Origin: Ephemerocybe angulata
Taxonomy: Eukaryota > Basidiomycota > Agaricomycetes > Agaricales > Psathyrellaceae
Length of the DNA: 64,000 nt
Direction of reading: 5' to 3'
NCBI GenBank assembly: GCA_013368325.1
Contig: JAACJK010000061.1
Coordinates: 310,001 to 374,000 of the forward strand
Positions 15,335 to 56,759 of this stretch are shown here, piece by piece. The translations under genes were made by a program, and so were the position numbers. The notes below the pieces were generated by a model. That model was not told the DNA's origin. It searched no databases and was given only the letters and a program-made list of their open reading frames with translations. Position 1 is the stretch's first letter. Each line of letters begins with the position of its first letter.

Positions 15335-15933
15335 TCAGCAGGTCTGGGTTGATTTGCTCTTGCTCGTCTTGGTGCTCGGACGACAGGTGGAATGCGGCGT
15401 TGTACCTCCAGATGGTGCGCGAGGCCCTCGATGGTAGGCTCGATTCCAGCAGTTACTCGTTCCCCAATTAGGTTGCACATACTTGTGCATTTCACCCAGG
15501 AGATAGGGCTCGAGTCTACCTCGATGGCCTTGGCTGGCGTTTGTCAGGTAGCGCGGGATCTACATACATGCAATGGAGCTAAGCACATATGGATCGACGG
15601 GTGCAGTGGAATGGGAATGGAACTAAGGACTGAGGGAAGGAAGGGAGCGAGCAAGCGGTTATTTATCTGGATGGATGGATGGATGGATGGATGGATGGGA
15701 GGTTTGGGAGAGGGTGGTGCGGTGCGGCGCGGACGTACCCCTGCTGCGAACCCTTTGACCCAATGGGAGAACTTGATCGGTGCCCTCGGCAATATCGAAC
15801 TTTGGGGTCCGGGTGAGGACGGTGATGGAGAGATTGGGAGCGCGAGGGTGTAGGGCGTTGATACTGCTACTGCTATCAGTAGGAGGAGGAGGGGGAGGGG
15901 GGTGAGGGTGACGCCGAGGATGTGCCAGGGCAT
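15335..15933 (-). CDS. WAAG-family secreted protein 1
   Basis: Exon 1 (15933-15739, 65 codons) has a signal peptide (MPWHILGVTLTPLPLLLLLI), the LALP segment, LPRAPIKF and the family motif WVKGFAAG at its last codons. The donor GTACGT follows the final Gly in phase 0. An acceptor at 15560 gives exon 2 (15559-15335), which starts IPRYLTNASQ and ends KSKSTQTC; it has Cys and Ser/Thr but not the Lys/Pro repeats of its tandem relatives. The intron would be 179 bases, longer than in most members. A conserved TATA box sits 131 bases upstream of the ATG. The function is unknown: a small secreted protein or peptide precursor. The exon 2 frame is less certain than exon 1. Confidence 0.65.
15671..15700. 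repeat. GGAT microsatellite inside the intron of WAAG 1
   Basis: About seven tandem ATGG/GGAT units. They lengthen the intron and lie between donor and acceptor. Confidence 0.8.
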
Positions 15934-17292
15934 AGTTGGTTTAATTGCGAGTCTGGGTTGAGAGTGCGCCTTCTCCGAGTCGTACCGGGGCGGGAGGAGG
16001 TGGGGAGTGGGGTGGGTAGGTGGACAGGCCGGCTGTGTGGGTTTGGGGAGGTAGCTGTGGGGAGAATTTATACGCTGTTTGGGCTATGATGTAGCTGCAT
16101 TTCACTAGAGGTTCTGACTTCTGAGAAGTAATGTGCGTCTGTGTATGTTTCAGAGGACAGCTCCTGAGATAATTGCACTGCGTAGAAAAATCATAGATGC
16201 GATATGCTGGGGAAGGTGGATTGAACTTGATATTATCATGCATCGAGGTTGGCAATGGAACATCGAAGGGAAAGGTGTGATATATCTACATCGTACTGGG
16301 ATCTTTACCCATGTCGGGGTTCTTTATCCTGTGTTTCTGAGATAACTCGGACGAGAGTGGCAGAGTGCGGTGTGGCTTCACCATTAGTGAATCATGAAGG
16401 GAGATTGATGCTTGGGAGTCACTGAGAGGCTGATTCGAGCCATACTCACGTCGAGGGAATAAAGACGAGGACATACCAAATTTTGTGGTATTTATGGACG
16501 ACATTCGAACAGCGTCGAGTCCGATCAGCACTCCATCTGATCGACTCTCGTTTCTAGTGGGCGCCTATTTCAACTCACTGGGTTCTGCAGTCTGCCCGGT
16601 TACCAGTGACCAGTACCAATAGCATCATATCTCCGCCAAGAGGATTGTTCGCTGTTCCGGGGTGGTGTTGCCGAGGTCGTTGACTCTGGGACTTCCGGCG
16701 AAAGTTGCAGACCGGCGGCTGTGGGGTTGAGCTGGGTGGTAGGTAGGTAGGTATGACGGCGTTGTGGTCCCACTCCGGAACTACCGCACATCATGAGTCT
16801 CGCTGTGGCGAACCCGGACAATACACGACCTGCTCGGATGAGCAAGCTATACTCGTCCGGGAAACTGTCAGCCTTTCCCATGATGTGTTTGTCAGAAGAC
16901 TGACGGTGTGTAAAGGTTCGCTCAGGTGACGAGGCCCGGAGGCCTTCGACACCTTTGCAGGCACCATACGCCAGGATGTTCGGACACTCGGGACAGGAAA
17001 CGAGAGCAGTAGTGAATTGTAGTCTCCCGTAGTCAGACTACAAAAATCTGAGGTCGATGTTGGCATTCCCTTCAGCCATGTTGGTTTTGCGAAAAATGTA
17101 ATTACGAGGCTAAATAGAAGTACGCAACACGAAAAGCTTGTATTGAACCGGTATAGGAAGGGAAGCTATTTCTTTGAACCGCGTCTACGTTCGGGGGCCT
17201 GGAAACATAATCATGACATCAAACACAAACTTTGCAAAAGTCGGGGCGAGATCATGATGATCGAGAAAGAGATGGATGGATTGGATGGGGTC
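15934..17292. other. Duplicated WAAG promoter segment, then unassigned sequence
   Basis: 15934-16605 is closely similar to 21047-21777 (upstream of WAAG 3) and partly to the upstream of WAAG 2. Similarity ends at CCAGTGACCA near 16605. 16606-17292 has only short frames. A minus-strand frame near 16600-17066 is open but unrecognised. Confidence 0.6.
16064..16072 (-). promoter_or_regulatory. TATA box of WAAG 1
   Basis: TATAAATTC on the minus strand followed by TCCCC, 131 bases before the ATG. The same TATAAATTC[TA]CCCC block occurs before WAAG 2, and ATAAATTCTCCCC before WAAG 3 at almost the same distance as here. Confidence 0.65.
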
Positions 17293-18130
17293 CTATGTAA
17301 TCCGGGATGCAGTAAGGTGGGGAGAGATTTCTGATACACGAGAGAAGAAGGGGTCTCTTCGGTTCTTCAGGTCGGCGAAGCCCTCGCAGAGGAAGAGGGA
17401 GTGAACCTCCGATTCGGTAGGTTCCCGGCAGTACCTGCAGGGGCGGTTGGCGATTTTGTAGCCTTTAGGGCATCTAACACGGCGGTACATCTCAACGGCG
17501 AGAGTATGATCAGAGCATAGCATGCATGTGAGGGATTTTCTGTGCGCTGGCACGATGACATTACGCAGATATGATGCATGGTACCCGTGTAGGCTTCAGA
17601 GAGGGACCAAGAGAATGTGCAGTGTTGTAGTGAAGCTGAGACATGATGAGGTTATAGAGGACCGTCTTGGAGCGTAGGACCCGGGAATGGAGGAAGTAGG
17701 CCAATGCGACAGCGAGGGTGAGGAACGGTGATCGAGAAAAGATAAGATGTCATCATCGAAATTGAGCTTGGGCCAGTCAAAATTACAGGGTCTACGAGGA
17801 TACTGGCAATGATCAGGAGACGTCGGGGCCCCAGGACGGACCCGGGTCGCCAGGGTGAGGCATCGAAAACAGACCGGGACTGTGAATCGTTCGGAAGTGG
17901 GTGCAAAAATGCGATGAGAGTTAATGTCTGTCGAGGTAGCAGAGTTGCCCCGTCGAACATGATGGCATGTCAAATATGTTGCGGCGAGACAGCAGAACTG
18001 CTCAAACGGCGTGAGGTCGGCAGAGCTGGTCTTATCGAGGGCCCGGACAGTGAGGAGGGAGGCGAGTCTAGGCTCGGCCCTCTTGGTGGGAGCCATGTCA
18101 TATACCTTGCGGTGAGACAGACGGTACGAG
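17293..18130 (-). mobile_element. Remnant of a non-LTR-type reverse transcriptase ORF (C-terminal part)
   Basis: The clearest piece is 17553-17293. It reads PAHRKSLTCMLCSDHTLAVE, then a zinc-knuckle-like CRYC...EVHSLFLC (C-x2-C-x8-H-x4-C). That order matches the C-terminal region of reverse transcriptases common in Agaricomycete genomes. Upstream (to about 18130) the frame is broken, with fragments in different frames. No RT catalytic YxDD motif, poly-A tail or target duplication is visible. It is a 5'-truncated, inactive fragment. Confidence 0.5.
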
Positions 18131-18199
18131 ATCAGCAGAGCTGATCTCTCGGTAGTTGTCAATTATCGCAGTAGGAGGCGCAGGCGGTGCTCGTGCGTT

Positions 18200-18361
18200 C
18201 AGCGAGACAGCAGAGCTGCTCTATCGGGATTCGGAGGGTCGAGACAGCAGAGCTGCTCTATCGGGATTCGGAGGGTCGAGACAGCAGAGCTGCTCTATCG
18301 TAGGGTCGAGACAGCAGAGCTGCTCTATCGTAGGGTCGAGACAGCAGAGCTGCTCTATCGT
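18200..18361. repeat. Tandem repeat with a palindromic core (30 and 37 base units)
   Basis: Five units share GAGACAGCAGAGCTGCTCTA. Two have a 37-base period ending GGGATTCGGAGGGTC and three a 30-base period ending TCGTAGGGTC. The core AGCAGAGCTGCT is self-complementary apart from the centre, so each unit can form a small hairpin. Related single cores occur at about 17980 and 18130. Confidence 0.85.
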
Positions 18362-18871: not shown

Positions 18872-19551
18872 TTACCGACGTCGATGGGGAACTGGAACTG
18901 GTGTAGCCCTCTTTGGAGGAACTGGTTTCGCCACCTTTGGAGGAACTGGTTTACCCACCTTCGGAGGAACCGATGTAGCCCTCTTTGGAGGAACTGGTTT
19001 CGCCACCTTCGGAGGAACCGGTGTAGCCCTCTTTGGAGGAACTGGTTTCGCCCTCTTTGGAGGAACTGGTTTAGCCACCTTCGGAGGAACTGGAGCCCTC
19101 TTCGGAGGAACTGGTGTAGCCCTCTTCGGAGGAACTGGTGTAGCCCTCTTCGGAGGAACTGGTTTAGCCCGCTTCGGAATATTTTTATTCTTCCCCGTGG
19201 GCTGCGGCTTCGAGGCTTTGGGGGGGTTTGGCGTGAAGCGCGGGTTCTACATGAAGCGCGGTGACTGTAAGTAAGTGTGGATGGATGGATGGGTCGGAAA
19301 TGGAAATAATGGTGGGGCGGATTCAGTCCAGTGTAGTTAAAATTACTTACCCCGGCTGCGACCCCGGAGGCCCATTGGCGGAAGTCGATTGGCGCTCTTG
19401 GGAAGTTGAGGGTGGAGTCTAAGCTTCTCTGGGGTACGGGTGCGGGTGAGGGGTCGGAGAGGGGGAGCGCGAGAGTACTGGGCAGTGGTGCTATTGCTGT
19501 TAGGAGGAAGAAGAGGAACATAGAGGCGGCCTTGAGGATGTTATGCCGCAT
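18872..19551 (-). CDS. WAAG-family secreted protein 2, Lys/Pro repeat payload
   Basis: Exon 1 (19551-19351, 67 codons) starts MRHNILKAASMFLFFLL, a signal peptide. LALPLSDPSP, FPRAPIDFRQ and WASGVAAG follow directly before the GTAAGT donor. Exon 2 (19246-18872) starts NPRFTPNPPKASKPQPTGK and then holds about eleven 8-residue units of the type KPVPPKRA / TPVPPKVA, ending PHRRR. The mature protein would be very basic and Pro-rich, probably extended (PPII-like) and suited to binding polyanions or cell-wall material, but that is inference. The intron (104 bases) holds GGAT-type repeats. The acceptor is chosen because only it removes the in-frame TAG and aligns NPRF with WAAG 3. Confidence 0.7.
18890..19170. 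repeat. 24-base coding minisatellite (KPVPPKRA units)
   Basis: On the + strand the unit is GGAACTGGTTTCGCCACCTTCGGA-like (24 bases), repeated about eleven times with one shorter unit near 19090. The period is a multiple of three, so copy number can change without breaking the WAAG 2 frame. Confidence 0.85.
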
Positions 19552-20119
19552 GTTTGGTTCAATTCTTCGTTTATTCTCCCTGTTCTTCACGAGTCGAGGT
19601 TGAGTTTGTAATGAGGGTTGGGCCTCGGACCGGCGAGGGAAGAGGAAGTGGGAGGCAGCTGTGTTGGGTGCGTGGGTGGGTGGGGGAACAGGCCAGCTGT
19701 TTGGGCTTCTTTGAGTTATGTTGGGGTGAATTTATACTCGAAGCTACGGGACGAGCGCGCGTGCTGTGATGTTTCTGCATCCGAGTCACACTGGCGGTTC
19801 CGACTGAGAAGGTCAGTCCGTCGGTGACCGTAGGAGAGTCCCAGATGCGAATTTTTTTGGGGAAGGTGGATCGGAATCATCGAAGATGTGATACCTATGC
19901 CTTCTCTAAATGATAAACTAGATGGTTAGTTCGGTGTGGAGTGCTTGAAGTGAAGGGAGATTGATGTATGGGAGCTGGGAGTCGTGCTCATTTCAAAAGA
20001 AGAAAGAAGGAGGAGAAGACGAGTGTTGCACCAAAGTGTTGTGATATTTGTGGGACTTCCAACTTCGAAGGTCGAACCATCGTACGCGTCTCCGCCCAAA
20101 TTTGTATCAGCATTCCATC
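19552..20119. other. Promoter segment of WAAG 2, duplicated type
   Basis: Shares blocks with the upstream regions of WAAG 1 and WAAG 3, including GGGAGATTGATG, TTGTGG(T/G)A(T/C)TT and CA(T/C)TCCATCTGAT. No gene. Confidence 0.6.
19728..19736 (-). promoter_or_regulatory. TATA box of WAAG 2
   Basis: TATAAATTC on the minus strand followed by ACCCC, 177 bases before the ATG; conserved with the WAAG 1 box. Confidence 0.6.
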
Positions 20120-20560: not shown

Positions 20561-21046
20561 TTAACGTCGACCTCGGTGCGCTCCTCTAGCCCGCGAAGCT
20601 CCCCCTGCATGTTGCTTCGGTTTTGGTTTCGTTTTCGGTTTCGGTTTCGACGGTGGGGGTCTAGTATGTGTGTACGTCCAGCCATACTTTGGGCCCTGTG
20701 CCATGAAGCGCGGGTTCTACATGCCATGGGGCTAAGTAAGTATGGATCGACCGATGCGGGAATCGAAATATGGATTGAGGGAAGGAAGTGAGCTAGCGGT
20801 TATTTATTCTGGGTGGATGGGAGGATTGGGAGAGGGTGGTGTGGTGTGGTGCGGACGTACCCCTGCTGCCAACCCGGTGACCCACTGGGGGAAGTTGATT
20901 GGTGCCCTCGGGAATATCGAAGTTTGGGGTGAGGACGGTGGTGGAAAGATTGGGAGCGCGAGCGTGTAGGGCGTTGATACTGCTGCTCCCAGTAGAAGGA
21001 GGAGGTGGAGGGGGGTGATGGTTACGCCGAGAATGTGCCAGCTCAT
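20561..21046 (-). CDS. WAAG-family secreted protein 3
   Basis: Exon 1 (21046-20861, 62 codons) starts MSWHILGVTITPLHLLLLLG and is the nearest relative of WAAG 1. It continues through LALPIFPP and FPRAPINFPQ to WVTGLAAG at the GTACGT donor. Exon 2 (20716-20561) starts NPRFMAQGPKYGW and ends in a Lys/Pro run (SKPKPKTKPKPK) and GAHRGRR. The NPRF start of exon 2 is shared with WAAG 2, which supports both acceptors. The product is about 113 residues, secreted and strongly basic. The intron is 144 bases. Confidence 0.7.
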
Positions 21047-21776
21047 GGTTGGTTTAATTGTGAGTCTGGGTTGAGAGTGCGCCTCCGAGTCGTAGCGGGG
21101 CGGGAGGAGGTGGGGAAGTGGGGTGGGTAGGTGGACGGACAGGCCGGCTGTGTGGTTCTGGGAGGTATCTGTGGGGAGAATTTATCCTTTTTTGGGGGCT
21201 GTGATGTAGCTGCGTTTCACTGGTGGTTCTCACTTGAACTTCTGAGACGTAATGTGCATCTGTGTAAGTTTTAAAGGACGATCTCAACACAGCTCCCGAG
21301 GTAATTGCACTGTATAGAAAAATCCTGTATGCGATCTGCTGGGAAAGGTGGATTGAACTTGGTATTACCATGCATCGAGGTTGGCAATTGGATATTGAAG
21401 GAAGGTGTGATATATCTACATCATACTGGGATCTTTACCCATTTCAGGGTTCTTTATCCGTTTCTGAGATAATTCGGACGAGAGTGGCAGAATGCAGTGT
21501 GGCTTCATCATTAGTGAATCATGAAGGGAGATTGATGCTTGGGAGTTCTTGAAAGGCTGATTCGAGCCATACTCACGGCGAAGGAGTAAAGCAGGAGAAG
21601 AAGACGAAGACATACCAAGTTTTGTGGTATTTATGGAACTTCGAAGTTCGAACATCGTCTCCGCTCGCGCTGTATCAGCACTCCATCTGATCGTCTGGGG
21701 CTGGTCTTTAGTGGGCGCCCAATGGGCGCCTATTTCAACTCACTGGGTTCTGCAGTCTGCCCGGTTACCAGTGACC
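21047..21776. other. Promoter segment of WAAG 3, duplicated type
   Basis: Near-copy of 15934-16605 down to the shared end CAGTGACCA. No gene. Confidence 0.6.
21178..21185 (-). promoter_or_regulatory. Degenerate TATA box of WAAG 3
   Basis: ATAAATTC on the minus strand with the conserved TCCCC after it, 132 bases before the ATG. The first T of the WAAG 1 box is changed (GATAAATTC). Confidence 0.5.
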
Positions 21777-21890: not shown

Positions 21891-22293
21891 GATGATGTCA
21901 CTTCGGGCATGGACGGTGTATGAAGTTCTATAATGATGGATACAGCCTTAGAGCGGGGGCCCCTTTTCACCATTTTTCCTTTCTTGGTCCTACTTGATCA
22001 TTCATGGTTCTCAGATATCTCGCCACTGTTCACAAGGTTCGCTTCTTGGATTAAGTCCATTTCCACCGTCGATGAGTACCAGCTTCCACTTGGCGCTTCT
22101 CCCGAATGACATCCGGTCTACATGTATCACGTAATCTCTCAGTATATAGGCTAGGTCCCTCCAGCCTAAGATTCCTTACAGCTGGTCTGTTATCCACCCC
22201 TAGTCAGAATCGTCCGGCACATTCTTTCTATTTCTTCCTCAACCAATTTTCGCCCTAATCTCGCGTTTTTCACGCTTACATTTAACGACCACC
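21891..22293. other. Promoter region of the DUF7888-like gene
   Basis: A TATATAGG block at about 22143 lies 150 bases before the ATG, followed by a CT-rich leader (22210-22290) typical of fungal 5' UTRs. Confidence 0.45.
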
Positions 22294-23153
22294 ATGTTAT
22301 TCCCCACCGTTATTCTCTCCCTCTTCGCCTGCACCGTGAGCTTCGTCTCTGCCGCCCCGGCCTCTTTCAACGAACAAGACTTGTATGCCCGCACCGACGG
22401 TGACGTGAGCGTATTCGCAGGCCGGGAGATCACGACCGAGGAGATCGTAGCACGCGATGCCATCATCCCCCTGGGCGCGACCTCTTCCATCGAGGTCCGC
22501 GATTACTTCAGTGACGAGGAGATCCAAGACATCGCCGTACGCTATACCGCTGGGCTTGATGGCGACATGGAACTCGAGCCCCGTGTTGTGGGCACTATCC
22601 TCGAGATCACCGCCAAGGTCGTCGACGCCATCTTCAAGGCCGTCAAGGGGCGCATCGAGCACGACAAGGCGGTAAGTAAATGCGACATGGTGGTAAATCG
22701 TAATGGGAATAGCAGCTGACAAACCTGCGCCGTGTACCAGGAACGCGGTAGGTTCACGTCTCACTTCGTCACCGAGGCGAGCAAGAGAAAGGGGAACTAC
22801 AACTGGATAATCATCCACACCTCACACTCTTGCAACTTTGAGGGCACGAGGGGTAAGGATTGGGGACACGAGCACAAGGAGTTCAACGTCAGCTACGGCA
22901 AGACCATTGGGTAGGCACTCTTCCCCATAAATTATATTGCATCAGGAATCTAAACTAATACCCACCCAGATATGAGATCTACTGGGGCAGGAAAGGCGTT
23001 TGCGTCAACAAGGGTGATGGAGGATACCTCAACGTACGCACATCCAATGTTCGATGACGCACTGTGTTACTGATTGGTTATCCATGCCAGTGGGCGATGT
23101 CCGGCAAGTTCAAGCGTACCGGCAAAGATGAAAAGACCGTCAATTTCTACTAA
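22294..23153 (+). CDS. Small secreted protein, DUF7888-like
   Basis: Four exons (22294-22671, 22741-22910, 22970-23033, 23091-23153) splice in frame to 224 residues. Residues 1-20 are a signal peptide (MLFPTVILSLFACTVSFVSA). A pro-like acidic segment (~21-85) is followed by a helical AKVVDAIFKAVKGRIEHDKA. The C-terminal half reads FTSHFVTEA, YNWIIIHTSH, KDWGHEHKEF, GYEIYWGRKG and the hallmark GDGGYLNW, ending in a KRTGKDEKTVNFY strand. That series resembles DUF7888, a family of secreted fungal proteins of unknown role. All introns are 57-69 bases with good consensus ends, and the gene looks intact. It is likely an extracellular effector or defence protein, but the activity is not known. Confidence 0.75.
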
Positions 23154-23324: not shown

Positions 23325-23586
23325 AGGTATCAGCGCTCGTGGCACACTCTAGAGAAAGAGAACATACCTAGGAGAGGCCACAATTGGTCCCACGCGACGT
23401 ATCGACGTCCGGCGAGTGAGGCGTGTAGAGATCAATGAGCGAGAAAGTAGGAAAAGTCGGGTTTGGGATAGAGGCAAAAGCCTGGATCCGGCTCAAGTGC
23501 CCGATCTCCCTTTGTATTTGGGGTGATAAATTGGTGATAAACATAAGAACTCCTGCCATACTCGTATATCTACAGGACTAATTGAG

Positions 23587-24873
23587 CTACACACTGGTGC
23601 CCTGTGCAATGACTCTAGCACCACCGGCTCGATGCGATTCACCGCCTTTAGCGCAGTTGGTCTGGTACGCGGTGCTAGAAGTAACACTGACTGGGCCTTG
23701 GAAAGCTACAAAACTAGTTCTCTCCTCCGCCGTAAGTACAGTTTCGAAATCGATGAACCCTGTAGGAGATTGTGTTATTTATTTCGGAGAGAAATGGCGT
23801 GTAAATGACTCACAATGGTAATGAGCGCCCTCTGAGCCGTCGCTCCCCTTGCGTTTACGCTTGTCAAAGTAAGCCTTCATCAGCATCAGATATTGGTAGG
23901 AAATATAGCCTACATACTTTATCGCCGAAAGCTGCCAGCACCGTCCCAGTTGCAATGACAGGTCCTTCACCCATGGCCGTCGTCGCGCACGATGTCGTCT
24001 CCACCTCGAACTTGCAGTCGAACCCATCGCGGTTTTGAAACTCGAACTTTGTCTCTTGTTTGTTCGAGTACGTCGTCTCGAAGGTGTTGGTTCTCTGGTT
24101 TCGGAAGGTTCCAGTGGTGGACACGGATGCCTCGAACTTGGCGACGGCAGGGAATTCAAAGGTGGCTTTGAACTCTGCACCTACAGCGAGGGACGCCTCC
24201 TCTAACGAATCGTCAGATACTACCCCAGGACAATTGATTTGCATGCACGTACTGGTGACAGTCCATGAGGTCTTGGATTCATCCCCAATTGTTTGTATGA
24301 AGGTCACAGTTTGGTTCGTGCCATCGACGCTACCCTGAATCTGTCTGTTGGAAGTACTGCATTTCGGTTGATCTTTCAGGTTTTAGCGCCAGTACTACTC
24401 TTTAATTCTGTCGAGATCACACACCTGCATATTGAATTGGGATTGAGGCCGCATCCATACAGCCGTCAGCAATACGGTCGGGATACTTGTATGACGTTAG
24501 TTGAAGTCGCGGGGGTCTTGTACGGTAAACATACCTGGGGATCGTTTAAACGGAAGTCGGCGCCTTTCCCAAACTGATCTTCCGCGTACTTGACAATCTT
24601 GTTCCAAGCGGGCACTGAGATGATTGGGTACATATTGATATAGGATGCGGGCGGGTATAAGGAGTGGCACTCACATCTCGACACCTGCTGGAGGTCAAGG
24701 GGGAAGCAAGACACTGACGCGCGTGGCTCGATTCCGTTGAGGGAAGCAGAATCTTGCCTGACGGCTTCGGCGGGAACTGTGGGGCTCCCAGACACAGGGA
24801 ACAGCAATGCGGACAACGTGATGACGGCTGCAGCAAAGACCGGTAGTGTGTGCGGCACCATCTGAGTCTTCAT
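23587..24873 (-). CDS. Secreted beta-rich protein, possible ETX/MTX2-aerolysin-like fold (left copy)
   Basis: Exon 1 starts at 24873 with a signal peptide (MKTQMVPHTLPVFAAAVI), then SVSCFPLDLQQVSRCE and KIVKYAEDQFGKGADF, and ends at the GTATGT donor after NDPQ. Later exons give YPDRIADG and a short donor-side segment. The long central exon has alternating Ser/Thr, Glu and aromatic residues (FEFPAVAKFEASVSTTGTF; TYSNKQETKFEFQNRDGF), and the last exon has FIDFETVLTAEERTSFVAF and ends GTSV. The alternating strand pattern with a Ser/Thr-rich hairpin resembles the membrane-inserting region of ETX/MTX2-type beta-pore proteins. I infer the fold from pattern only, and no specific target is implied. 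All exons are open. The TATA box of the right copy is altered here to TATGAAA (about 25016). Confidence 0.65.
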
Positions 24874-25628
24874 GAATATTGAGATTGAGCAATGGAGTTG
24901 TTTGAGGGGGGACGCAAAGTACTAGTAGAGAGGGCCTGCCCTCGGAGGTGACTTTGAAAGAGTGGAAAAGAAACTAGGTGATAGTGACCACTTTGTGAAC
25001 GTTCGAGTTTCATACTTCAATGAAAAGTCAGGGGTCACAAGATCAAGCTTGAGCGCCACGCCGACTCGGATGGCTTAGCGCTGTGCCCTCGATACGCATA
25101 TCCCGACGTCCCCGGTTCTCAATAGGCGCCTTCACTTTTTTTGGAGTAAGTAGGTAAGACCTAGTTATCCGACGTGTGGTGGAATGTGCAAAATTGATCA
25201 TTTAGAAGGCCTTGATAGCTTTACGCACCTGCCATCTCCTAGCCACGCAACACACACACACGCTGACGACCCCTTGGCCCCATTAGATTCAGTGAGTCTT
25301 GGCAAGTCGCCTTGCTCACCGACAAATTCTCACGTGCAATGCGTTTGGAGTGCCATATGTCGCTCGGACGAGAAGCATGAGCTGCTCAGTGTGTTGGGTA
25401 CAAAAGGGGATCGGATGGCGTTACATACTATGCAAATGGGATGAGTTGTGCTACTCCTAATTCCAAGTGCCCCGAAATGGGAAAATAATGATAGAAAACG
25501 CAAGATTGGGATGGAAAATCCATAAGTAAGAAGGACAGAGAAATGGCGTAGCCATGATGTGGCGCGTCTTCGCGAACCAGAATGCGTTTTGGTGGTGACC
25601 TCAGAAGTTCCAGAGGCTATGCAGAGCT
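24874..25628. other. Spacer within the left arm
   Basis: Matches 57390-58106 inverted. It holds the promoter side of the beta-rich gene. No gene seen. Confidence 0.5.
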
Positions 25629-25843
25629 CTACTTGCATGCGTTCAGAATCTGGCATGGTTGAGGTTGTGCAACGGGCGCGCGCTGCGTGATATCAACAGT
25701 ATCTGGTGCTGGTAGGGGGAAGGATGAAGCGAGGTCGGTCACCAAAGTCAGTCAGTGTGGTTCCCCATGGCAATCTTATAATCAGGCTGGGCGCACGTAC
25801 TGATTGCGACGACGACGGTGCAGGTGAGGATGTCGGATTGCAT
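25629..25843 (-). pseudogene. Small secreted Cys peptide gene, splice acceptor lost (left copy)
   Basis: Exon 1 (25843-25801) starts MQSDILTCTVVVAI, a hydrophobic signal, and ends at GTACGT. Exon 2 encodes TDLASSFPLPAPDTVDITQR, then a short Pro/Gln segment and a C-terminal pair of Cys (PCQILNACK) before the stop at 25629. The right copy has TTTCGTAG before exon 2, but here the sequence is TTTG, so the AG acceptor is missing. A product of only about 51 residues is expected: signal, short pro-region ending in TQR, and a 14-16 residue Cys peptide. The family is unrecognised. It could use a cryptic acceptor. Confidence 0.55.
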
Positions 25844-26497
25844 GGTGGACGCGGGTGCCTTGCTTCAACTGTGGTGCGAAAGGGAGAGCGGGGCGATTTG
25901 AGTTATTGCCCATGAAGTGTCGTAAACTCATCGTACAGTACTTATATCTATGAGTGTCACAGACGGTTAAGGGCATGGGTGGAGAGTGGGGAGGACTGTT
26001 AACAAGCAGTCTTCCAACTTGGGAAGCGATTAACCCAAATCCGGGGTTCCTAACTTTAATTCAATCCCCAGGCTGGGCCGCTGGAGTTCATAACTTATCT
26101 TTCGGTCGTTCGCGGGTACGATTAGGAAGTGTCTTTATGCTTCCAGCGATGGCTCTACGATTTGTACACTCCACCTGGGGAGCATGGCTCTACTAGTAAC
26201 GTCGCTAATTTGGGGGGTAAGGATATCGCACTACCCATCTGGTCCGACTACCTGCACTACACTATGTCTTTAGAGGGGTCCTTGCGGCACTGTCATTTTC
26301 TGTGCTTCTAAGTTACGTATTCAGACTGTATACTAGGGGCATAGCCCTTCTGCTCGCTCGTCCTCCAAGCTGTCTAGCTGTGAGACCTGCTCGTCTCCCG
26401 TTGTACCGAAGGATAGTAGCCAGCGGGGTTCCTGCTGTGAGCAGCGCTCTCATGCTGGTTGCGCGTGGTGTGGGGCTGGGCGCCGACAGAGTCGATG
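25844..26497. other. Spacer within the left arm
   Basis: Counterpart of 56760-57177, with an extra stretch at 26280-26460. No gene seen. Confidence 0.5.
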
Positions 26498-26965
26498 TCA
26501 GACCGTACGTAGATGTGATAAATTCCTGTTTAAGTTGTACCAGATCCGGTTGTTGTCAATCTCGTTCTCGGAGTCGGTGTTCCGTTCGGCGTCGAAACCG
26601 TTAGGAAGGCGGTCCTTGCCCTCAATGCAGTTGTAGAACTGGGTGTTGTATGCGCCGAGTTCGATGTGGGCGACGTTAAGGTATATCTGATTGTACCGAT
26701 AGGCGTAAACATGGCCATGTATATTGGGTCCTGGCGCACAGGGTATGTAGGTGTTCAGCTTTAGGTTTCCATTCTTTGGCAATGGTATGCGAAACTCACC
26801 CCCGCGGCAAACCCCTGCGCCCATGCGGCAGCATTTATCTGTCTGAAGCCTCGTGGATGGATCTCCGTGTTCGAGTTGTCTGAGGCGGAGGACGAGATAG
26901 GTAAAGCCAGAATACTTTGCATGGCTGCGCTGAGCAAAATGGTTGTGGAGTAGAAGGAGATGCAT
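26498..26965 (-). pseudogene. WAAG-family gene 4, decayed (left copy)
   Basis: The ATG at 26965-26963 matches the WAAG 7 start, but a two-base loss in the signal peptide (ACTCCACAACC against ACTCCTCACAACC) shifts the frame. A second ATG at 26922 is back in frame but leaves only a stub of the signal (MQSILALPIS). The motif exon is intact: QINAAAWAQGFAAG ends at the GTGAGT donor (26799). Downstream, GHVYAYRYNQIYLNV and NTQFYNCIEGKDRLPNG remain, but an insertion after NNRIWYN shifts the frame to an early stop. WAAG 7 keeps the longer frame. Confidence 0.65.
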
Positions 26966-27387
26966 GGCCCGCTCTGCAGGTTTGAAGGTGTGTAGTTGAT
27001 GCGCGAAAAATCGGGAGGGAGGGAGAACAGGCCGGCTGTGAGGAGCTACAACGTAAATACCGGGGTATTTATGAGCCACGGCAGGTCCCAGCGTCGAGTC
27101 AGAGATACCGGGAAACAATGTATTGGGCGAGAGATGGGGATAACTCGTGTAGAAAGAAATACTATTTACTCAAAAGGCATAATCTGATGGACATTGTTTC
27201 GCTTATCTATAAAACAGGTAGGTAGGTAGGTATTTTAATGATCATCACGAAACAAGCGCTCGTCTGGAGTCCGTGGTCTGTGATGACGCCTTCTATCGGC
27301 GCACTCGCTTTGGTCGCTGTTTGGCTTCGCCTTCGAGGTACGATCCGTGGCCCGCCTTCCTTCCTTCCCTCATCCCCTCACCACACA
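26966..27387. other. End of the left arm and 5' flank of the homeodomain-like gene
   Basis: Matches 55815-56143 inverted up to about 27303. A GGTA microsatellite lies at 27220-27233. Confidence 0.6.
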
Positions 27388-31572: not shown

Positions 31573-34500
31573 CTAAGCGCCCAAACAGGACGGTGAGGTG
31601 CCAATCGGCGCGTGGTAAAGGGCGTGAGCAGAGTGCCTGCCATCAAACGCGCCGTCGCTGGTGGGATATCGACGGCTCAGCAAGTACTGATAGAAGTCAA
31701 CGGCTACATCTGGCGCGTGTCGGTCCCCGATTGACCACATCGTTGCGACCACTCGACGATAACCTGCAGCGAGCATCCCAGCAGCTAGATGAACAGCTTC
31801 GTCGGGGAGCTTCTGAGCACCGGTGCTCGTCTGGCATGCCGAGAGGAATGCGAGGTCGGCGTTCTTGAGGTTCCGCTGAAGTATGCTACCGAGCTCAAGT
31901 GGGCCACTGTGGAAGATGAATCGACTCTTGAGAGGATCCTCCGCATCTTGAGTGGCGTGGCAGGCTAGGTGAACGCTACTGCACGTCTCCATATGATCGA
32001 GGCAACCAGTGGCTGTCAGGCCCATGCCATCTAGCTTCTCCACCCGTATTCCGCCCTTCTTCGTTATGTCATAGATAGCAAGAACCTCCTTCTTAGTACC
32101 TGGAATAGAAGAAACACCATCTGGGCTCGGTTGGCTGGTAATGAATAAGCCAGAGGTTTTCTCTTCGATAAAGGCGCCGCTCTTGACTCGTTCAGTTAAT
32201 GCAGCAACTGTTGGGGTGTATGATGAGACTGCGTAATCGAGGATGCTTTCAGATCCAGTATCTCTGTATATCCCCGCCGCATGGATGGGAAGGAATGATA
32301 AGGGCCCGGTAGGGCACCACCAGATTCTTGGGAGTGCTGCGACGCGTGATTGATGTATCTTCTGCGATACATGGTCAGAGACCAACGCCTTTTTAGACGC
32401 AAAATAAGTGAATGAACTTACCGACACGTTTAGCGCTTTCAGGATTGGCTTCACAATTTCTTTCCACAGCACTCGTAGAATACCCTGAATTACGGTCTCG
32501 CCACGCTTTCCCCTCAAATTGGCGCACCTTATCCCCCTCTCCGTATTCCCGTCACTCTCCTCTATTTCGGAGCTGATAGGATTGTAGCTGCGCAGCTAGA
32601 TCACCCCGGTACTGATTGCATTTCTCGAGCGAAAAATCGGGGAGGGGAATGTGGAATGGTCGACCCTTCCCTGCCTGTAGGGCAATAGCATCGCACCGGC
32701 GTTCATCGATATTGATGACAATGACGGGACCTGATTCCGGAAGGTGTTCAAGGAGGCTAAGCCAATTTAACGGCTTAAGGAAGTTCTCGAACCCGGGAAA
32801 CACCCGCGCTTGATCCAAGAGGCTGTCCCATCGCCGTGCAAGGCTCAAATTATCCTGAGCTTGCTCCTCCAAAGATGTCTTCTCCGACGACGACATCTTC
32901 GTTCGTGAAGGAGTCAGAGCAGAACCAGCTGCGTCGAGTTTCTTTGAAACCTCCAAAATGTTGTCGGTGAGGTGTGGGTCGTATTGGCGCAGGCTATCCA
33001 GTGGTCTCCGAAGATTGGTGAGCTGACCCCAGACGAGGCAGCGGCCCCGTTCGAGCCACTCTAGAGCTTTGTCAGCTCGGTCAATAGTGAACGCTGCGCA
33101 AGCAGCGCGAAGGGGTATCCCTGAACTTTCCTGAAGTTCTGTATAGCGCCGCTGCAGGGTTTGCTCGAGAGTCGCGGTCAGCTCAATCAAGTGGAGGGTG
33201 GTGTCGAAAGCAGGCAGGATTATTGATGGCGGGGCCGGGGGGTAGGCGTCCATAAGAAAACTTGTCCACATTCCTGCTGCACCCAGTTTGACTTGAGGAG
33301 AGCCAGATTTGCAGGTTACGGCCTCCCCGAGCCTGGATATGCCTTCACGGGCGGCATCAACATCTCCGGTTTTCCTATTTGAACGCATTACCAGCGAAAG
33401 GCCGAGCTGACCCAGCCATCTAGACATGTTGCCATGACCATCGGGAGTGAGCCGGACCATTTCTCGTGTCGAAGAAATGACTTCAGAAAGGTCGCTGAGC
33501 TTTTTATTTACTTGGAAGCGATCCTGGAGGGAGGAACACAGGGCACCAATCCAGGAAGGCTTGTCTGCGTGGTCATCCGACGTAAGCCTCACCGCTTCTC
33601 GGTGCATTGCGATGGCCTGATTGATGTCGCGGATATCACCGGTGGAGCTAAAGAGGAGCTCAAGCGAGCTGCCGAGGTTAACGAGACGGGTGGGCATGGC
33701 TGGGTGGTCGTTAGGAGTGAGATCCACCGCTCTCTGCTGGACCGAGATAGCCTCGGCAAGGTCAGGCATTTCCTCCGTGCGGCGGAAGCGTGACCGAAGC
33801 GCCATACCGAGGTTGTTGAGCCAGGAAAGCTTGTTCTCATCGCCAGGCGGACTGAGCTCTAAGGCTTTCCTTAGCATCGCAACCGCCTCGGAGAGATCGA
33901 ATAGCTCCCTCGTGCGATCGTAGCGTGTGTGGAGGGAGAGACCGAGGTCGTGAAGCCTTTGGGGGAGGTCTGAATCATCATCGGGAGTGTGCTCCACCGC
34001 TCTCCGCTGCATTACAATAGCCTCAGAAATGTCATAGATTTCTTCAGTGCGCCGGAAACGTAACTCAAAGCAGGAGCCGAGGCCATTAAGCCAGGAGGGC
34101 ATACCCACATGACCATTGGGAGCCAGCTCCATCAACTTCTGGTACGTTGAAATGGCTTCGTCGAGGGATTGAAGGTCGCCAGTGCGCTCAAAGAGTAACC
34201 TGAGTGAGCTGGCATGGTTTTCGAGACGCTCAGGCATAGCCAGATCACCATCGGGAGTGACCTCCACCGCTCTGCGCATCATTGGAATGGCCTCTAAAAG
34301 GTCAGGCAGCTCCCCTATGCGGTGGAAGCGTGATTGGAGGGAGACACCAAGGACGGTGAGGTATACTGGAATGACCGCCGGGTGTTCATCGGTTGCGAGT
34401 TCGACCGCTCTACGCCCCGCAGATATGGCCTCATCGAGGTCGCGAAGCTCGTCAGTCACGTCAAACCGAGACGAGAATGCGAGAGCGAGGAAGCTGAGTA

Positions 34501-34609
34501 CGACAGGGACGGTCCCATGCCCATCCGGAGTGTGCTCCAGGGCCCTCTGAAGCTTTGATATTGCCTCAGAGCTATCAATGAGGTCTCCCGTTTCTTGAAA
34601 TTTCTCCAT
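31573..34609 (-). CDS. TPR-CHAT protein (caspase-like peptidase domain), with a frame break
   Basis: The first part (34609-32552, about 685 codons) holds about ten TPR-like units of the pattern LxxAIxxxRRAVExTPD...LxxLGxSLxxRFxRT. These repeats mediate protein binding. A helical linker follows (EWLERGRCLVWGQLTNLRRPLD). The CHAT domain lies in 32517-31573, with a 60-base intron (32421-32362) between LNVS and KIHQS. It has WWCPTGPLSFLPIHAAG, the catalytic His in HLACHAT and the catalytic Cys in FLSACQTS. CHAT domains are caspase-like peptidases seen in cell-death and defence modules. The TPR and CHAT frames differ by one base near 32567, with no plausible intron there. After SAHALYHA the protein stops within 11 residues, so the usual C-terminal WxPYxHFG-type end is missing. 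The gene is probably recently damaged. It may also lack 5' exons. Confidence 0.75.
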
Positions 34610-35329
34610 CAACGTCCTGCCATCTTCGTTTGGATTTCAAAGATGGTTAATATTGCACTCATTGTCTATTTAGACCCCTCACCATTTACAAGCCCGTCAG
34701 CAAGTGACCTATGTAATGGTGTGCTCAGGTTCAACGCAGATTATAGGTTGTATCTTAAGAATACGCACGGAATTTTCGTTGTGTCGTTGTCAGCCATATC
34801 AGCGCCAGGGTTGGATTAGGTGAGGGAAGGTTTTGACAGGGTACTCGTCTACAGCCCCACTATATATCTGCATTGCACTGCATTAATTCATGCCATACAT
34901 TCCAAAAATATATCGGTGCTATTACGCAGTCCTCCAAATAAGACGATGCAGTGTCTCGTCGCGCACTACATCCCATGCTGTGTTATGGGCGCTTATGTCT
35001 GCTGACCGCAGAAAAGGTCCCCCTTTGAGCGACAGACACGGAAAAGAGGGCTTCAAGCGTCGAATCTACTGTATCACGCACTTCAACACACCAAACTCAA
35101 AGCAGAATGCCCAGGCGCACAGTAGGCTGCATCGTAACACGGCGCCTATTTCCTGTGACTGGAGGAATATGTCGGTCAATCCGATATGCTGATGAATATG
35201 TACACTTGGGGAAAGAACCCTTAGCTCACAGCCATATACTCCACACCTGTGTGCGATCTGTCTTTCATTTCATATCCTCTCAACAATGCCCAAAAGGCTC
35301 GTTACGGGCAAGTTATAAACTAGCAACTG
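34610..35329. other. 5' flank of the TPR-CHAT gene
   Basis: No supported gene; short frames only. Confidence 0.5.
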
Positions 35330-35395: not shown

Positions 35396-35875
35396 TTGCT
35401 GGGAGGTCGTTCTATCAAAGGTTGTTAAAGTTGAGAGGGTGCAGGAAGACAACATATAAATATGCTACATGCGTATTGCATCACACTGAGTTTGGGCAAA
35501 ATCACCCAGCGGGGCCTGTCGTGGAGCCGGGATATGACTTGTATATAGTAAAAGGCTACCTGTTTACTACCGTCTGGAATGAGAAGCGTGGTTTGTGAGA
35601 ACATTGGAGGTGACACCTACACTGCCCTCCCCTGATTGGACAATGCATGCACGACAGGCGCCCAAGGCCCTCCCATCAATCACAACCCTGTCGTGCATTC
35701 ACCATCTTGATTGAGGTTTGAAAGCGGCTCTCGGCGCTCGCAGAGAATGCCCCTCCGTTTGTCCGTTTTACACATACTTAAGTGTGACAGTAGACATGGT
35801 AAGATGCAGCTTTCATCCGCTGGTCTGTTGAACTCCTCTATTCCCGTTGATTATCATCACCCATATACCGTGACA
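35396..35875. other. Promoter side of WAAG 5
   Basis: No gene seen. Confidence 0.45.
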
Positions 35876-36245
35876 ATGTGCTCCGTCAAGATGATTCTGC
35901 TCGCTATTTTGGGAATCGCTCAAATAACATTCGCCTTTCCACTGGTGCATACCAGAGTGCGAAGAAGTGGTCGACCCAGAATCAATTCGTGGAACTGGAT
36001 CCATGGAGTGGCAGCAGGTGTGAGTCGGTTTAGCCTGTAATCCAGGGCATGGTTGCTACCCTTACTTACCGCTTCTGCAGGGACAGAACTTCTTCCCCTG
36101 GTATGATATGGGAGCTAACAATATATCGCACGAGGAGGGTCCGCGTCCTCATATGCCGACATTATGCGACCCGCGGTGCTGGGCTCAACTTGAAGCCTTG
36201 CATGTCAAGGATCCTGAACCTGTTGGTGAAATTCCACATTCGTGA
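35876..36245 (+). CDS. WAAG-family secreted protein 5
   Basis: Exon 1 (35876-36019, 48 codons) begins MCSVKMILLAILGIAQITFA (signal). It has FPLVHTRVRRSGRPR, with a dibasic RR site, then NSWNWIHGVAAG at the GTGAGT donor. The intron (36020-36080, 61 bases) ends in a good CTTCTGCAG. Exon 2 starts GQNFFPWYDMGANN and ends EPVGEIPHS. It has two Cys in TLCDPRCWAQLEAL and no Lys/Pro repeats. The mature protein is about 100 residues or less. This copy shows the clearest intron of the family and a completely different payload. An in-frame second ATG lies 15 bases downstream. Confidence 0.7.
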
Positions 36246-37151
36246 CGACATCTCGCTGCCCGCCTGGACGTGTATTCTGGTCTGGATCACCGCCCGAGGT
36301 TCAATAATGGATCTCGACGATACACTAACTCTACGCTTAATCGACCCGACACGCGCGAGATGGAAGTAGGGACGAATGTAGGACTAGACGCTTCAAGTTG
36401 GTCCATGGGTTGGAACGATTGGAGGGAGGTTACGTGCAAAGTGTTTAAGGTAGTGCCTAGGATGTTATGTATGATATGTAGTAGCAATGAGTAGGTGCCA
36501 TGCGAAGTGATCCATTGGATGAGTACACCACTTGGGAGATGGAGTCCATGCAAAACGTCCCATGCGCTTGTAGCTTTCCAAAGGCACCCCTTTCACAATC
36601 AGCGCAGCAGTAAACTTGAAACAGGTCAAAGAACCCGTGTGCATGAGCGCTATTCTCCTCGCAAAAAGGATCTGTTATGAAATAAGCATGCTGCGATCCA
36701 CTATACTTCTGAAACTGGACCACAGGTGCAGCTGTATATTCCCGGTTGGTGTTGCATTTCCAAGCACCTTCCGAGTGCCTCCAAAACCTTGCTTCGCGAC
36801 TTGCATCCAGCCTGAACGTATGTCTCGGATTTATACTTGGTGCTCGAAACAAACGAGTATGGATATAAGTATTGGGGCACAGCGCCCGATAGACAATTTA
36901 ATTGCCGTCACCTGATGGAGATCTTTGATTAGAGTTGGGACCTTCCAAAGTACCCTTGTCAAATCAGTAACCCAACAGACATCTGCCATTTTCCATTGTC
37001 CAATCGTTCATCTCCAGAGCGTCACATTGTAACGGCAACACGCGATAGCACATTTAAGGGTCATAGTGTTCGCAGGTCGATAGCACGATCCTCACAGCTG
37101 GTCTGTGGATCCCGAATTCGGTACTTGTCGATCGCCGCACGCTCGTTATAC
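36246..37151. other. Spacer between WAAG 5 and WAAG 6
   Basis: Short frames only, nothing recognised. Confidence 0.5.
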
Positions 37152-38320
37152 ATGATGGCACCTGGATTGCGCCTTCTCCCTCTGACCTTACCTCTTCTCC
37201 TGGCTGGCTCAGGAGCCTTCGAGGCAGCTCTCGGTTTACCGGTCATTCCCCAGGCTCTAACCAGGAGGTATGACCTCAGCGACTGGATGGGAGGTATGGC
37301 AGCAGGTGTAAGTCCAACACCAGATGTACGTCGGTTTGGGCCCCTTGTTAACGAACCTACGCTGCGCATCCAGGCACAAGACTCGCTCGCATTCCTCAGA
37401 ATGGGACAAGACGACGGAGAAAAGCTGAAGAAGGAGAAGGAGGCAAACAAACCGAAGTTCATCAAGCATGACAAGAATCACCCTCCCAAGTTCGATCCCT
37501 CACAAATAAAGAAAAGCGTACCGCCTCCGAAGCCCTTAGTATTCACTCCACCTCCCTCTAAGAACTCTGTTAAACCAAAGCCGCCTCCGCGCCCCCCAGC
37601 GCGCCCAGCGAGTCGGCACGCGCCACCTACACCGAACAAGGCAGGGAAGTCGAACACGAAGCCACGCCCACATCCTCCACCTCGTCCGGCCAGTTGGAAT
37701 GCACCGCCTACACCCAACAAGGCAGGGAAGGCGGGACAGAAGTCGAAGTCCCAGCCACGTCCTCCACCCCGCCCGGCCAGCTGGCATGCGCCCCCACTCC
37801 CAACAAAGCCGGGGGTCCAACGAGGAAGCCGACTCCACCGAAGGTCAATCGTAACAAGTCGCCGCCGCAGAAGAAATACGCGCCGGTAAAGAAGCCCAAC
37901 CATCCTCCCAAGCCGGCGACGAAGCCTAAACCTCAAGCACGCCCGGCTCAGCAGAAGAAACCCGCACCTCACAACAAGGCGCCGGCGAAAGTGTACACCC
38001 GTCCGATGAACAAGCCCAACAAGCCTGCGCCACCGCCCAAGCACAAGAACAATCCACCTCCCAAGAAGCCCGGGAATACAAGTCCCAGAACGCCCCATAA
38101 TACGCCCGCACACCGTGTACAGCAACAGAAGAAGCCGCATACCCCCAGCAAATCGAAAGCCCCTCCGGTCAAGAAGCACACTCCTCCTCCTCCTAAGCAG
38201 AATCCTAAGCCGAACAAACCGCATCCTCCTCCTCGTCCGCATCCGAAGCCCCACCCCGCACCGACCAAAGGCGCACCAGTTCACAAGCCTGCGGCACCCA
38301 AAGCGGGGAAGAAGAAATAG
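37152..38320 (+). CDS. WAAG-family secreted protein 6, long Lys/Pro-rich payload with a one-base frameshift
   Basis: Exon 1 (37152-37307) begins MMAPGLRLLPLTLPLLLAG (signal), then GLPVIPQALTRRYDLSD, with an RR site, and WMGGMAAG before the GTAAGT donor. The intron 37308-37373 is 66 bases and without a stop, so a read-through frame also exists. Exon 2 starts AQDSLAFLRM, then a Lys-rich segment and Pro/Lys repeats. Units of the type RPASWNAPPTPNKAGK occur about three times (37590-37830). In the third unit a run of five C (about 37790) replaces the expected six, shifting the frame. The other frame then continues in the same style to KPAAPKAGKKK and a stop at 38320. The full product would be near 365 residues, very basic. 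The indel is either a true mutation or a base error. Confidence 0.65.
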
Positions 38321-55189: not shown

Positions 55190-55814
55190 GTGTCTGGAAT
55201 TCATTATTTGTATCTTTATCATTTCATCCATTGTATCTAGACGATTGTATTATAGTTCATCCAGGTCTGTGCTGTATCATCTGTTTTTACTGGGGATTTA
55301 CTGAATTACGCAGAATAAGGATACCCTTATGGAAGAACCGGTATGATGACAGTAACTTCACGGTATAACCACCAAGAGGACCCACTACGTTATCTTCGAC
55401 CACAACCTCAAACATAGCACCGTACGGCGTACCTTGTATTTGAAGGTTGATAAACTTAGCTATAATTATAACTGATCAACCTCGACTGAGTTCATCGGAC
55501 TTCTGGGGCATGTCGTGGTTTCGATATTGTTCTTGCCAGATATACAGGAGCGGTAGTGGTTCCTGCCATTATGAGGACCGGCTTGGGCTGTCACAACAAA
55601 ACCCCTGCTTTTATGTCTGTATTTTTGGAGCAACTCATTGCATGCCATTCTGTGACCTCGGGACCAACACATTCCACCGATGTCACGTCAGCTTCTGGAT
55701 TAAGCGCCCAACAAACCCAGATTCAATTGCGCCGGTTTCAGCGCCCAGATCCTGTCAGAAGCCTGTCAGTCGTGAGTAGAGGCAAGATTGTATTGTGAAA
55801 TTGGACGGGCATAT
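55190..55814. other. Spacer before the right arm
   Basis: Short frames only; nothing recognised. Confidence 0.5.
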
Positions 55815-56143
55815 TGTGCCGATAGAAGGCGTCATCACAGACCACGGACTCCAGACGAGCGCTTGTTTCGTGATCATCATTAAAAACAAGGTCCATCAGA
55901 GTATGCCTTTGAATATTGATATGAAAGTGCTGGAAATCGTTATAAATAGTATTTCTTTCTACACGGGTTATCCCCATCTCTCGCCCAATACATTGTTTCC
56001 CGGTATCTCTGACTCGACGCTGGGACCTGCCGTGGCTCATAAATACCCCGGTATTTACGTTGTAGCTCCTCACAGCCGGCCTGTTCTCCCTTCCCCCCGA
56101 TCCCTCGCGTCGGCTACATACCTTCGAACCTGCAGAGCGGGCC

Positions 56144-56759
56144 ATGCATCTTCTTCGACTCCTCACAACCATTTTGCTCGGCGTATTCATGCAGAGTGTT
56201 CTGGCTTTACCTATCTCGTCATCCACCTCAGACAATTCGAACACGGATATCCATACACGAGGCTTCAGGCAGATAAATGCTGCCGCCTGGGCTCAGGGGT
56301 TTGCCGCGGGGGTGAGTTTCGCATACAGTTGTCAAAGAACGGAAACCTAAAGCTGAACACCCGCACTGTGCGCCAGGCCCCAATATACATGGCCATGTTT
56401 ACGCCTATCGGTACAATCAGATATACCTTAACGTTGCCGACCGCTTCGACCACATCGACCTCGGCGCGTGCAACACCCAGTTCTACAACTGCATCGAGGG
56501 AAAGGACCGCCTTCCTAACGGTTTCAACGTCGAACGGAACACCGACTCCGAGAACGAGATTGACAACAACCGGATCTGCTACAACTCAAACGGGGATCAC
56601 ATCTACGTACGGTCTGACATTGACTCCGTCGGCGCCCAGCCCCACACCACGCACAACCAGCACGAGAGCGCTGCTCACAGCAGGAACCCCGTTGGCTACT
56701 CAATAACGGGAGACGAGCAGAGACAGTTCCGCAAGGACCCTTATAAAGACAGAGTGTAG
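56144..56759 (+). CDS. WAAG-family secreted protein 7, Tyr/Asp-rich payload
   Basis: Exon 1 (56144-56311) begins MHLLRLLTTILLGVFMQSVL (signal), ALPISSSTSDNSNT, HTRGFRQINAAA and WAQGFAAG at the GTGAGT donor (56312). The payload frame with coding bias reads IHGHVYAYRYNQIYLNVADR, CNTQFYNCIEGKDRLPNG, DSENEIDNNRICYN and ends RKDPYKDRV at 56757-56759. The usual acceptor at 56375 gives the wrong frame. An acceptor at 56420 restores it but removes GHVYAYRYNQ. So either the intron is 109 bases or a one-base indel sits in the intron-exon border. A TATA-like CATAAATACCCC lies about 104 bases before the ATG. This copy is less damaged than WAAG 4. Confidence 0.6.

Follow-up and report, generated by a model that had tools for sequence, protein, structure and literature searches.

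A clustered family of putative small secreted proteins with a conserved first exon and a shared candidate promoter element in Ephemerocybe angulata

The window analyzed here, a stretch of 64,000 nt from Ephemerocybe angulata (contig JAACJK010000061.1, our C121, coordinates 310001-374000; GC content 52.7 %), contains a cluster of small genes, designated WAAG genes, that share a first exon encoding a signal peptide and ending in the motif W-x2-G-[FVLM]-A-A-G. The motif is found at 15762, 19374, 20884 and 26823 on the minus strand and at 35996, 37284 and 56288 on the plus strand (window coordinates), in all seven cases with a GTRNGT donor immediately after it. A preliminary description, made from the sequence alone, had proposed a common exon-1 design with this motif at seven loci, and the proposal holds for all of them, the signal peptide being broken in one (g26). 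The conserved exon, its donor and the clustering were computed directly, and the following gene models could be drawn, with introns as predicted:

15335..15933, minus strand: g15; exon 1 15739-15933 (65 aa, ..ILPR-APIKFSHWVKGFAAG), intron 15560-15738, exon 2 15335-15559 (74 aa, IPRYLTN..TQTC, isoelectric point, pI, 10.2)
18872..19551, minus strand: g19; exon 1 19351-19551 (67 aa), intron 19247-19350, exon 2 18872-19246 (124 aa)
20561..21046, minus strand: g20; exon 1 20861-21046 (62 aa), intron 20717-20860, exon 2 20561-20716 (51 aa, Lys/Pro first, then Arg-rich, pI 12)
26498..26967, minus strand: g26; near-copy of g56 in an inverted duplication, probable pseudogene
35876..36245, plus strand: g35; exon 1 35876-36019 (48 aa, RVRR..INSWNWIHGVAAG), intron 36020-36080, exon 2 36081-36245 (54 aa, two Cys, pI 5.0)
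37152..38320, plus strand: g37; exon 1 37152-37307 (52 aa, LTRR-YDLSDWMGGMAAG), intron 37308-37373, exon 2 from 37374
56144..56759, plus strand: g56; exon 1 56144-56311 (56 aa, IHTR-GFRQINAAAWAQGFAAG), intron 56312-56420, candidate exon 2 56421-56759 (112 aa, pI 5.4; drawn from its open frame only)

The Lys/Pro/Arg-rich exon 2 of g37 is open to 37889, and its Lys/Pro-rich reading shifts frame near 37.8 kb and continues to 38320. Genes g26 and g56 are carried by an inverted segmental duplication of about 4 kb (23328-27303 versus 55815-59619, 88-89 % identical); the reading frame of g26 is disrupted both within the signal peptide and in exon 2, which is shortened relative to that of g56, and this copy is probably a pseudogene.

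A pattern search of the whole genome (58.67 Mb, 232 contigs) with the strict codon motif plus donor gave seven matches, every one inside the window, against one for the reversed-pattern control. A relaxed exon-1 pattern gave 24 matches, nine of them in the cluster, against four in the reversed control; among the five of the 15 off-cluster matches that were opened, none had a signal-peptide frame running into the motif. The cluster extends about 37 kb to the left of the window with three further intact genes, m272, m274 and m289 (near 272.7, 274.4 and 289.2 kb of C121), and one decayed copy, m288. Nine intact genes could thus be drawn (g15, g19, g20, g35, g37, g56, m272, m274 and m289), the broken copies being g26 and m288. 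The preliminary description had made the family depend on homologues beyond the window, and these four copies on the same contig provide them. The WAAG observation is not due to chance; so far the family has been detected in this genome only, which is the sole fungal genome searched. A Pfam-A search with the nine intact proteins (g37 up to its first stop), plus the first 110 residues of L014, a paralogue of the neighboring gene g22 (see below), returned two weak matches, both below the curated cut-off, so that the nine proteins remain, as first described, without a recognized family.

Exon 1 encodes 37-67 residues in the intact genes, with a signal peptide in all nine according to visual inspection and a hydrophobicity rule. 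The nine aligned exon-1 peptides share without exception the initial Met, one Pro (within LALP and its variants), the Trp and the final Gly. The conserved block is longer than earlier noted, because it includes an Ile (Tyr in g37) five residues before the Trp and a [GAS]-hydrophobic-[AV]-x-G segment after it; its consensus is [IY]-[NDEK]-x3-W-x2-[GAS]-hydrophobic-[AV]-x-G, with a small-x3-small pattern ([GAS]-x3-G) in 9/9. For each of the nine intact genes, a phase-0 intron of 54-179 nt ending in a YAG acceptor could be modeled; the acceptor was picked among several candidates by the open frame downstream. The predicted exon-2 starts of g15, g19 and g20 are concordant (IPRY, NPRF and NPRF, following the same ATGTAG acceptor), and m274 has an unusual donor, GTACTA. 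The earlier claim that a phase-0 intron always cuts right after the final Gly agrees with the window, where a putative GT donor directly follows the motif in the seven loci, but not with m289, whose donor lies one codon beyond the Gly.

Putative kexin sites were defined as dibasic or [LIVAP]xxR, a rule widened from KR/RR/LxxR, since L, I, V, A and P are given as P4 residues at Kex2 sites (PMC8528282). Such a site lies 6-11 residues ahead of the Trp in seven of the nine intact genes (g15, g20, g35, g37, g56, m272 and m274). In g19 there is a VPQR site 18 residues before the Trp, bringing the total to 8/9, and its Arg at 8 residues (NFPR) falls outside the rule. The genome contains four matches to kexin P-domains, which, like the introns and the UstYa genes, are in keeping with its fungal nature. 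Once cut at the Arg site, the mature protein would thus probably begin with the Trp block, and the word "leader", applied to this segment in the preliminary description, is therefore likely to be wrong.

The strongest evidence that the WAAG genes act together, which had been missed earlier, is a shared promoter element. The sequence CAGCYGGYCTGT occurs upstream of six of the seven WAAG genes in the window, in a one-mismatch form at g35, and also before g22, an unrelated secreted-protein gene that lacks the WAAG exon:

16024..16035, minus strand: element CAGCCGGCCTGT of g15; TATAAA starts 37 bp before
19688..19699, minus strand: element CAGCTGGCCTGT of g19; TATAAA starts 37 bp before
21139..21150, minus strand: element CAGCCGGCCTGT of g20; GATAAAT starts 36 bp before
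22179..22190, plus strand: element CAGCTGGTCTGT of g22; TATATA starts 36 bp before
27027..27038, minus strand: element CAGCCGGCCTGT of g26; CATAAAT starts 35 bp before
35817..35828, plus strand: one-mismatch element CCGCTGGTCTGT of g35; no TATA-like box in the preceding 60 bp
37095..37106, plus strand: element CAGCTGGTCTGT of g37; CATTTAA starts 44 bp before
56073..56084, plus strand: element CAGCCGGCCTGT of g56; CATAAAT starts 35 bp before

The TATA-like box starts 32-40 bp ahead of the element in 29 of 31 sites, the exceptions being g37 (44 bp) and g35 (none). The decayed copy m288 (L037; C121, about 288.2 kb, minus strand) has kept both box and element, its exon 1 being broken in frame. Genome-wide, TATAWA-N(20-43)-CAGCYGGYCT gave 31 matches at 25 distinct sites (reversed control, 3), TATAWA-N(22-45)-GCYGGYCTGT gave 12 (control, 1), and the looser TATA-N(25-45)-CAGCNGGNCTGT gave 21 (control, 8); in these tallies overlapping TATA boxes count twice. 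Considering the bare 12-mer, a TATA-like box begins 35-44 bp upstream of 17 of its 26 genome copies, and 15 of these 17 precede an intact, correctly oriented signal-peptide-type start, the other two belonging to the broken g26 and m288. The remaining nine copies include L017 (TATTAAA at 29 bp, no signal-peptide frame) and L030 (TATA at 9 bp). Outside C121, there is a third cluster of sites on C11 (333.9-399 kb), with single sites on C60, C64, C98, C125, C146, C152, C214, C218 and others. In a search of open-access papers, seen mostly as titles, no known fungal secreted-protein promoter motif was recognized as this element, and the matches listed for the string CAGCTGGTCT looked unrelated, judged by title.

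This promoter likeness could reflect descent only, with a duplicated promoter being kept while the sequences encoding the proteins became unrecognizably different. Among close paralogues, upstream similarity is indeed extensive: it amounts to 92 % identity between g15 and g20, and the genes on C11 also look alike in this region. Nevertheless, in 19 representatives of different families the spacer from TATA to element is near-random and varies in length while the element, by which these sites were chosen, is fixed. This suggests that the element, however it arose, is probably constrained, and we consider descent alone quite unlikely as an explanation.

The genes that follow the element belong to several families. 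The cluster on C11 (L065-L070, 333.9-394.7 kb) encodes secreted repeat precursors behind a promoter with TATA plus CAGCTGGTCT and with alike upstream DNA; their deduced products have a signal peptide and then repeats such as APKGGLRRAGRAAGSALNHAGNIAGIVGALQGRDVEELDAR and RRPSTATVKRVGHGASRALDKAGQLADIVNTVQG, spaced by (E/D)AR sites, and look like KEPs (secreted precursors with several Kex2-flanked repeat units). On C226 (L038-L040, 36-80 kb), the element is borne by short secreted proteins of AFAIP[LVM]P type, including an inverted duplication of about 90 % identity with one copy frame-shifted; this pair has an I-x4-W motif shortly before a phase-0 GT and is possibly distant kin of the WAAG exon. 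Finally, g22 (22294..23153, plus strand), a secreted-protein gene with exons drawn by eye, and its paralogue L014 on C64 make up a pair of longer secreted proteins with 37-57 % identity, depending on the stretch compared; g22 did not match any Pfam family at E 0.01.

The association of the element with secreted frames was also computed directly. We scored a signal-peptide-like frame within 220 bp of each site by a crude hydrophobicity rule, at 35 examined sites minus g35, which was dropped because it was known beforehand and has no TATA-like box, plus L044, L056 and L064; these 37 do not include two TATA plus element sites, C11:399020 and C185:756088. The frame was found at 29 of the first 34 sites, and L044, L056 and L064 (the last lacking the first bases of the element) were negative, giving 29/37. 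It followed three of the nine remaining copies of the bare 12-mer.

The second exons are variable in composition. Five of the nine (g19, g20, g37, m272 and m274) are Lys/Pro/His-rich, with pI 12 and 28-52 % Lys plus Pro; that of g15 is basic (pI 10.2) and free of repeats, that of m289 has pI 9.6, and those of g35 and g56 are acidic (pI 5.0 and 5.4). Cys is absent from 5/9. In g19, a 24-bp unit repeated 12 times in tandem yields PVPPKRAT-type octapeptides (pI 12), with eight of the ten KR or RR sites of this exon spaced along it; the tandem-repeat program covered window positions 15000-60000, and repeats in m272, m274 and m289 were judged by eye. As to the other second exons, dibasic sites are absent from g15, g35, g56 and m272, two exons have one each, m274 has two, and those of g37 are clustered at the end of its open frame.

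This raises the possibility that the WAAG proteins are KEPs, with second exons cut at many Arg sites and short repeated peptides as the products. The repeat of g19 with its spaced dibasic sites fits, the element-bearing genes on C11 resemble classic KEPs, and KEPs are widespread in fungi and found in agaricomycetes (PMC9769878). However, regularly spaced dibasic sites occur in only one of the nine WAAG genes, g19, and none of the at least 16 genome matches to UstYa/DUF3328 (PF11807) lies on C121, C226 or C11, which counts only against the cyclised type of KEP. We thus regard this explanation as unlikely.

Comparison of paralogues shows where the divergence starts. Genes g15 and g20 are 92 % identical upstream (aligned part of 250 bp), 89 % in exon 1 and 87 % in the intron (z 20.5; z-scores from 40 shuffles), and their second exons cannot be aligned clearly above shuffles (z 1.8). 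This indicates that in these two genes, the closest pair, the divergence begins at exon 2 and not in the intron, and either exon replacement or very fast change could have produced it. A genome-wide search found no donor locus for the exon 2 of g15, just three short partial matches (32-69 query bases), and that of g56 recurs in the genome only in its own duplicate. The second exons of g19 and g20 are also dissimilar (z 0.8), and those of m272 and m274 are significantly similar (z 8.9). The early impression of second exons that differ almost completely overstates the diversity of the family, five of nine being of one Lys/Pro/His-rich type. Between g26 and g56 the divergence is about equal throughout (intron 7/109, exon 2 24/340, exon 1 16/168, the last being 5/3/8 by codon position). 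A single-sequence structure model of the g56 exon 2 had a mean predicted local distance difference test (pLDDT) score of 38.7, too low to interpret.

Two further explanations bear on these exons. Most could be non-coding or drifting, exon 1 and the promoter being preserved remnants of decaying duplicates, as the broken g26 and m288, the frame change within exon 2 of g37 and the lack of codon-position signal in exon 2 of g56 would suggest. Yet five genes have open second exons of a similar Lys/Pro-rich type, those of m272 and m274 resemble each other, and the exon-2 starts of g15, g19 and g20 agree, making general decay very improbable in our view. Alternatively, the proteins could be host-targeted effectors, whose N-terminal block would serve as an uptake or routing signal, like oomycete RXLR, with exon 2 as the effector domain. 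The constant N-terminal motif, the variable body, the clustering and an exon-2 divergence exceeding that of the intron agree with this idea; in certain powdery mildew CSEP families, too, the exons have diverged further than the intron (PMC3582587), and there is a nematode precedent for an effector-linked promoter motif (PMC6062891). We doubt it nonetheless and hold it improbable, given that five of nine bodies are low-complexity and Lys/Pro-rich, that five second exons lack Cys, and that the defining motifs of CSEPs (YxC) and IGYP proteins (IGY) are absent from exon 1.

We lean towards the view that the WAAG genes are clustered, duplicated genes for small secreted preproproteins, cut by kexin, transcribed from a shared core promoter and made together for biotic interaction. 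Exon 1 would encode the signal peptide, a short pro-segment ending at a kexin-type Arg site and the conserved block, and exon 2, after the phase-0 intron, would encode a fast-evolving body. Secretion and cleavage would leave the block at the mature N-terminus, where it would serve as a constant segment for docking or assembly, followed by a variable tail that is usually cationic and Lys/Pro/His-rich; such tails might suit binding to polyanionic surfaces or membranes. The core promoter would consist of a TATA-like box and, close to where transcripts presumably begin, CAGCYGGYCT, and since the same promoter lies ahead of other small secreted precursor families, all would be co-produced, most plausibly as a joint product set aimed at competing microbes, grazers or a host. 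A stronger version, plausible although we stop short of favoring it, is that of a core promoter dedicated to secreted peptides, with the element at the initiator position and with its own factor or initiation mode. It would drive several unrelated families jointly, as an inducible armoury spread over at least three clusters and single loci, in which exon 2 is swapped or quickly rewritten while exon 1 stays constant. The preliminary description had suggested a diversifying secreted family, and this survives in the shared exon 1, the common intron site and the fast-changing exon 2, without the wording of a fixed leader.

Several results weigh against the reading as secreted preproproteins under a shared promoter. 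The bare 12-mer by itself is hardly enriched in the genome, with 22 copies of the reversed pattern, and its fixity in the 19 representatives is circular, the near-random spacer not being so. The crude frame rule has a background of 21-23 % (in the window, 15/71 TATAWA without the element and 903/4000 random places), eight sites lack a frame (the broken m288, L044, L054, L056, L064, L071, L075 and L076), and the positive at g26 is false, an unrelated frame having been scored. The true count is thus 28/37, for which Fisher's test against 15/71 gives P = 7e-8, a value that overstates the certainty because paralogues are not independent. As to the proteins, m289 has neither a pro-region nor an Arg site, g35, g56 and m289 lack a Lys/Pro-rich tail, and an amphipathic-helix role of the conserved block is not supported, because the helical moments are only 0.06-0.38. 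Substitutions between g26 and g56 in exon 2 are distributed 8/7/9 by codon position, without a signature of constraint; this test is weakened because one copy is a pseudogene. The Tyr/Asp-rich exon 2 of this pair (26.8 and 56.3 kb) is therefore only a candidate coding segment, and its g26 copy is cut short.

Size and Cys content, by which fungal small secreted proteins are commonly catalogued, give no guide to which of them act together. If the start-site element proves predictive, a single DNA pattern would gather the members of a co-expressed set, among them genes whose shortness or repeats defeat ordinary gene finders, and would lead to the switch controlling it. Additionally, the g15 and g20 pair, in which promoter, exon 1 and intron are nearly unchanged and exon 2 is different, is a clean case for the origin of new secreted proteins.

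A Pfam scan of 29 long frames of the window found adjacent TPR and CHAT frames and a MYND finger above the cut-offs, and a weak TrAA12 match below. The TPR-repeat and CHAT (caspase-like) frames lie beside the secreted cluster (31576-34633, minus strand) and are perhaps a single gene; the MYND-finger frame is at 60759-61415, minus strand. PF00141 peroxidases, looked up as a clue to lifestyle, gave seven exon-level matches in the genome, few and fragmented.

The WAAG proteins resemble several known systems. Like K2PP effectors (PMC8528282), they have a signal peptide, a short pro-segment, an early LxxR-type or dibasic site (in eight of the nine genes under the widened rule, m289 being without) and a variable mature body; they differ in having a constant block right after the site, with five of nine bodies Lys/Pro-rich and five without Cys. 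With KEPs (PMC6339444, PMC7329392, PMC9769878) they share the secreted precursor architecture, with a signal peptide in 9/9, and g19 and the genes on C11 are also repeat-rich with Arg sites, whereas an array of Kex2-flanked units is lacking in eight of the nine WAAG second exons. UstYa/DUF3328 genes accompany 22 % of KEP genes (PMC7329392) and would be expected near the precursor of a dikaritin-type (ustiloxin-like) ribosomally synthesized and post-translationally modified peptide; none of the PF11807 matches mentioned above is so placed. In Coprinopsis cinerea, KEP knockouts showed no phenotype in axenic culture, and involvement in biotic interactions was suggested (PMC9769878).

Powdery mildew CSEPs with the Y/F/WxC motif (PMC3582587) also combine a constant N-terminal motif with a shared intron place, and in some families the exons diverge beyond the intron. 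In contrast, the WAAG motif is without Cys, there being no aromatic-x-Cys and no Cys at all after the signal peptide in the nine aligned exon 1s, and exon 1, upstream DNA and intron are conserved together, only exon 2 departing. The IGYP proteins of Dikarya (PMC4367982) are likewise a secreted, expanded family with an N-terminal motif conserved at an exon junction. The WAAG genes differ from them by the absence of IGY from the nine exon-1 peptides, the lack of a conserved Cys pair (five of nine second exons have no Cys) and the presence of two exons instead of three.

Regarding the promoter, a motif of cyst nematodes, the DOG box, is reportedly tied to secreted effectors. The STATAWAARS promoter motif of the pinewood nematode is also tied to secreted effectors (PMC6062891), and INR+FPR core promoters of Phytophthora infestans are linked to infection-related genes (PMC3599244). 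The 34 % given for STATAWAARS (predicted signal peptides among annotated genes; PMC6062891) and the 29/37 obtained here with a crude rule are on different scales. What these nematode and oomycete motifs have in common with the element described here is a short motif near the start that goes with secreted or infection-related genes from different families; what sets the latter apart is the combination, in a fungus and at a few dozen sites, of a TATA-like box with a fixed element located where the initiator is presumed to be.

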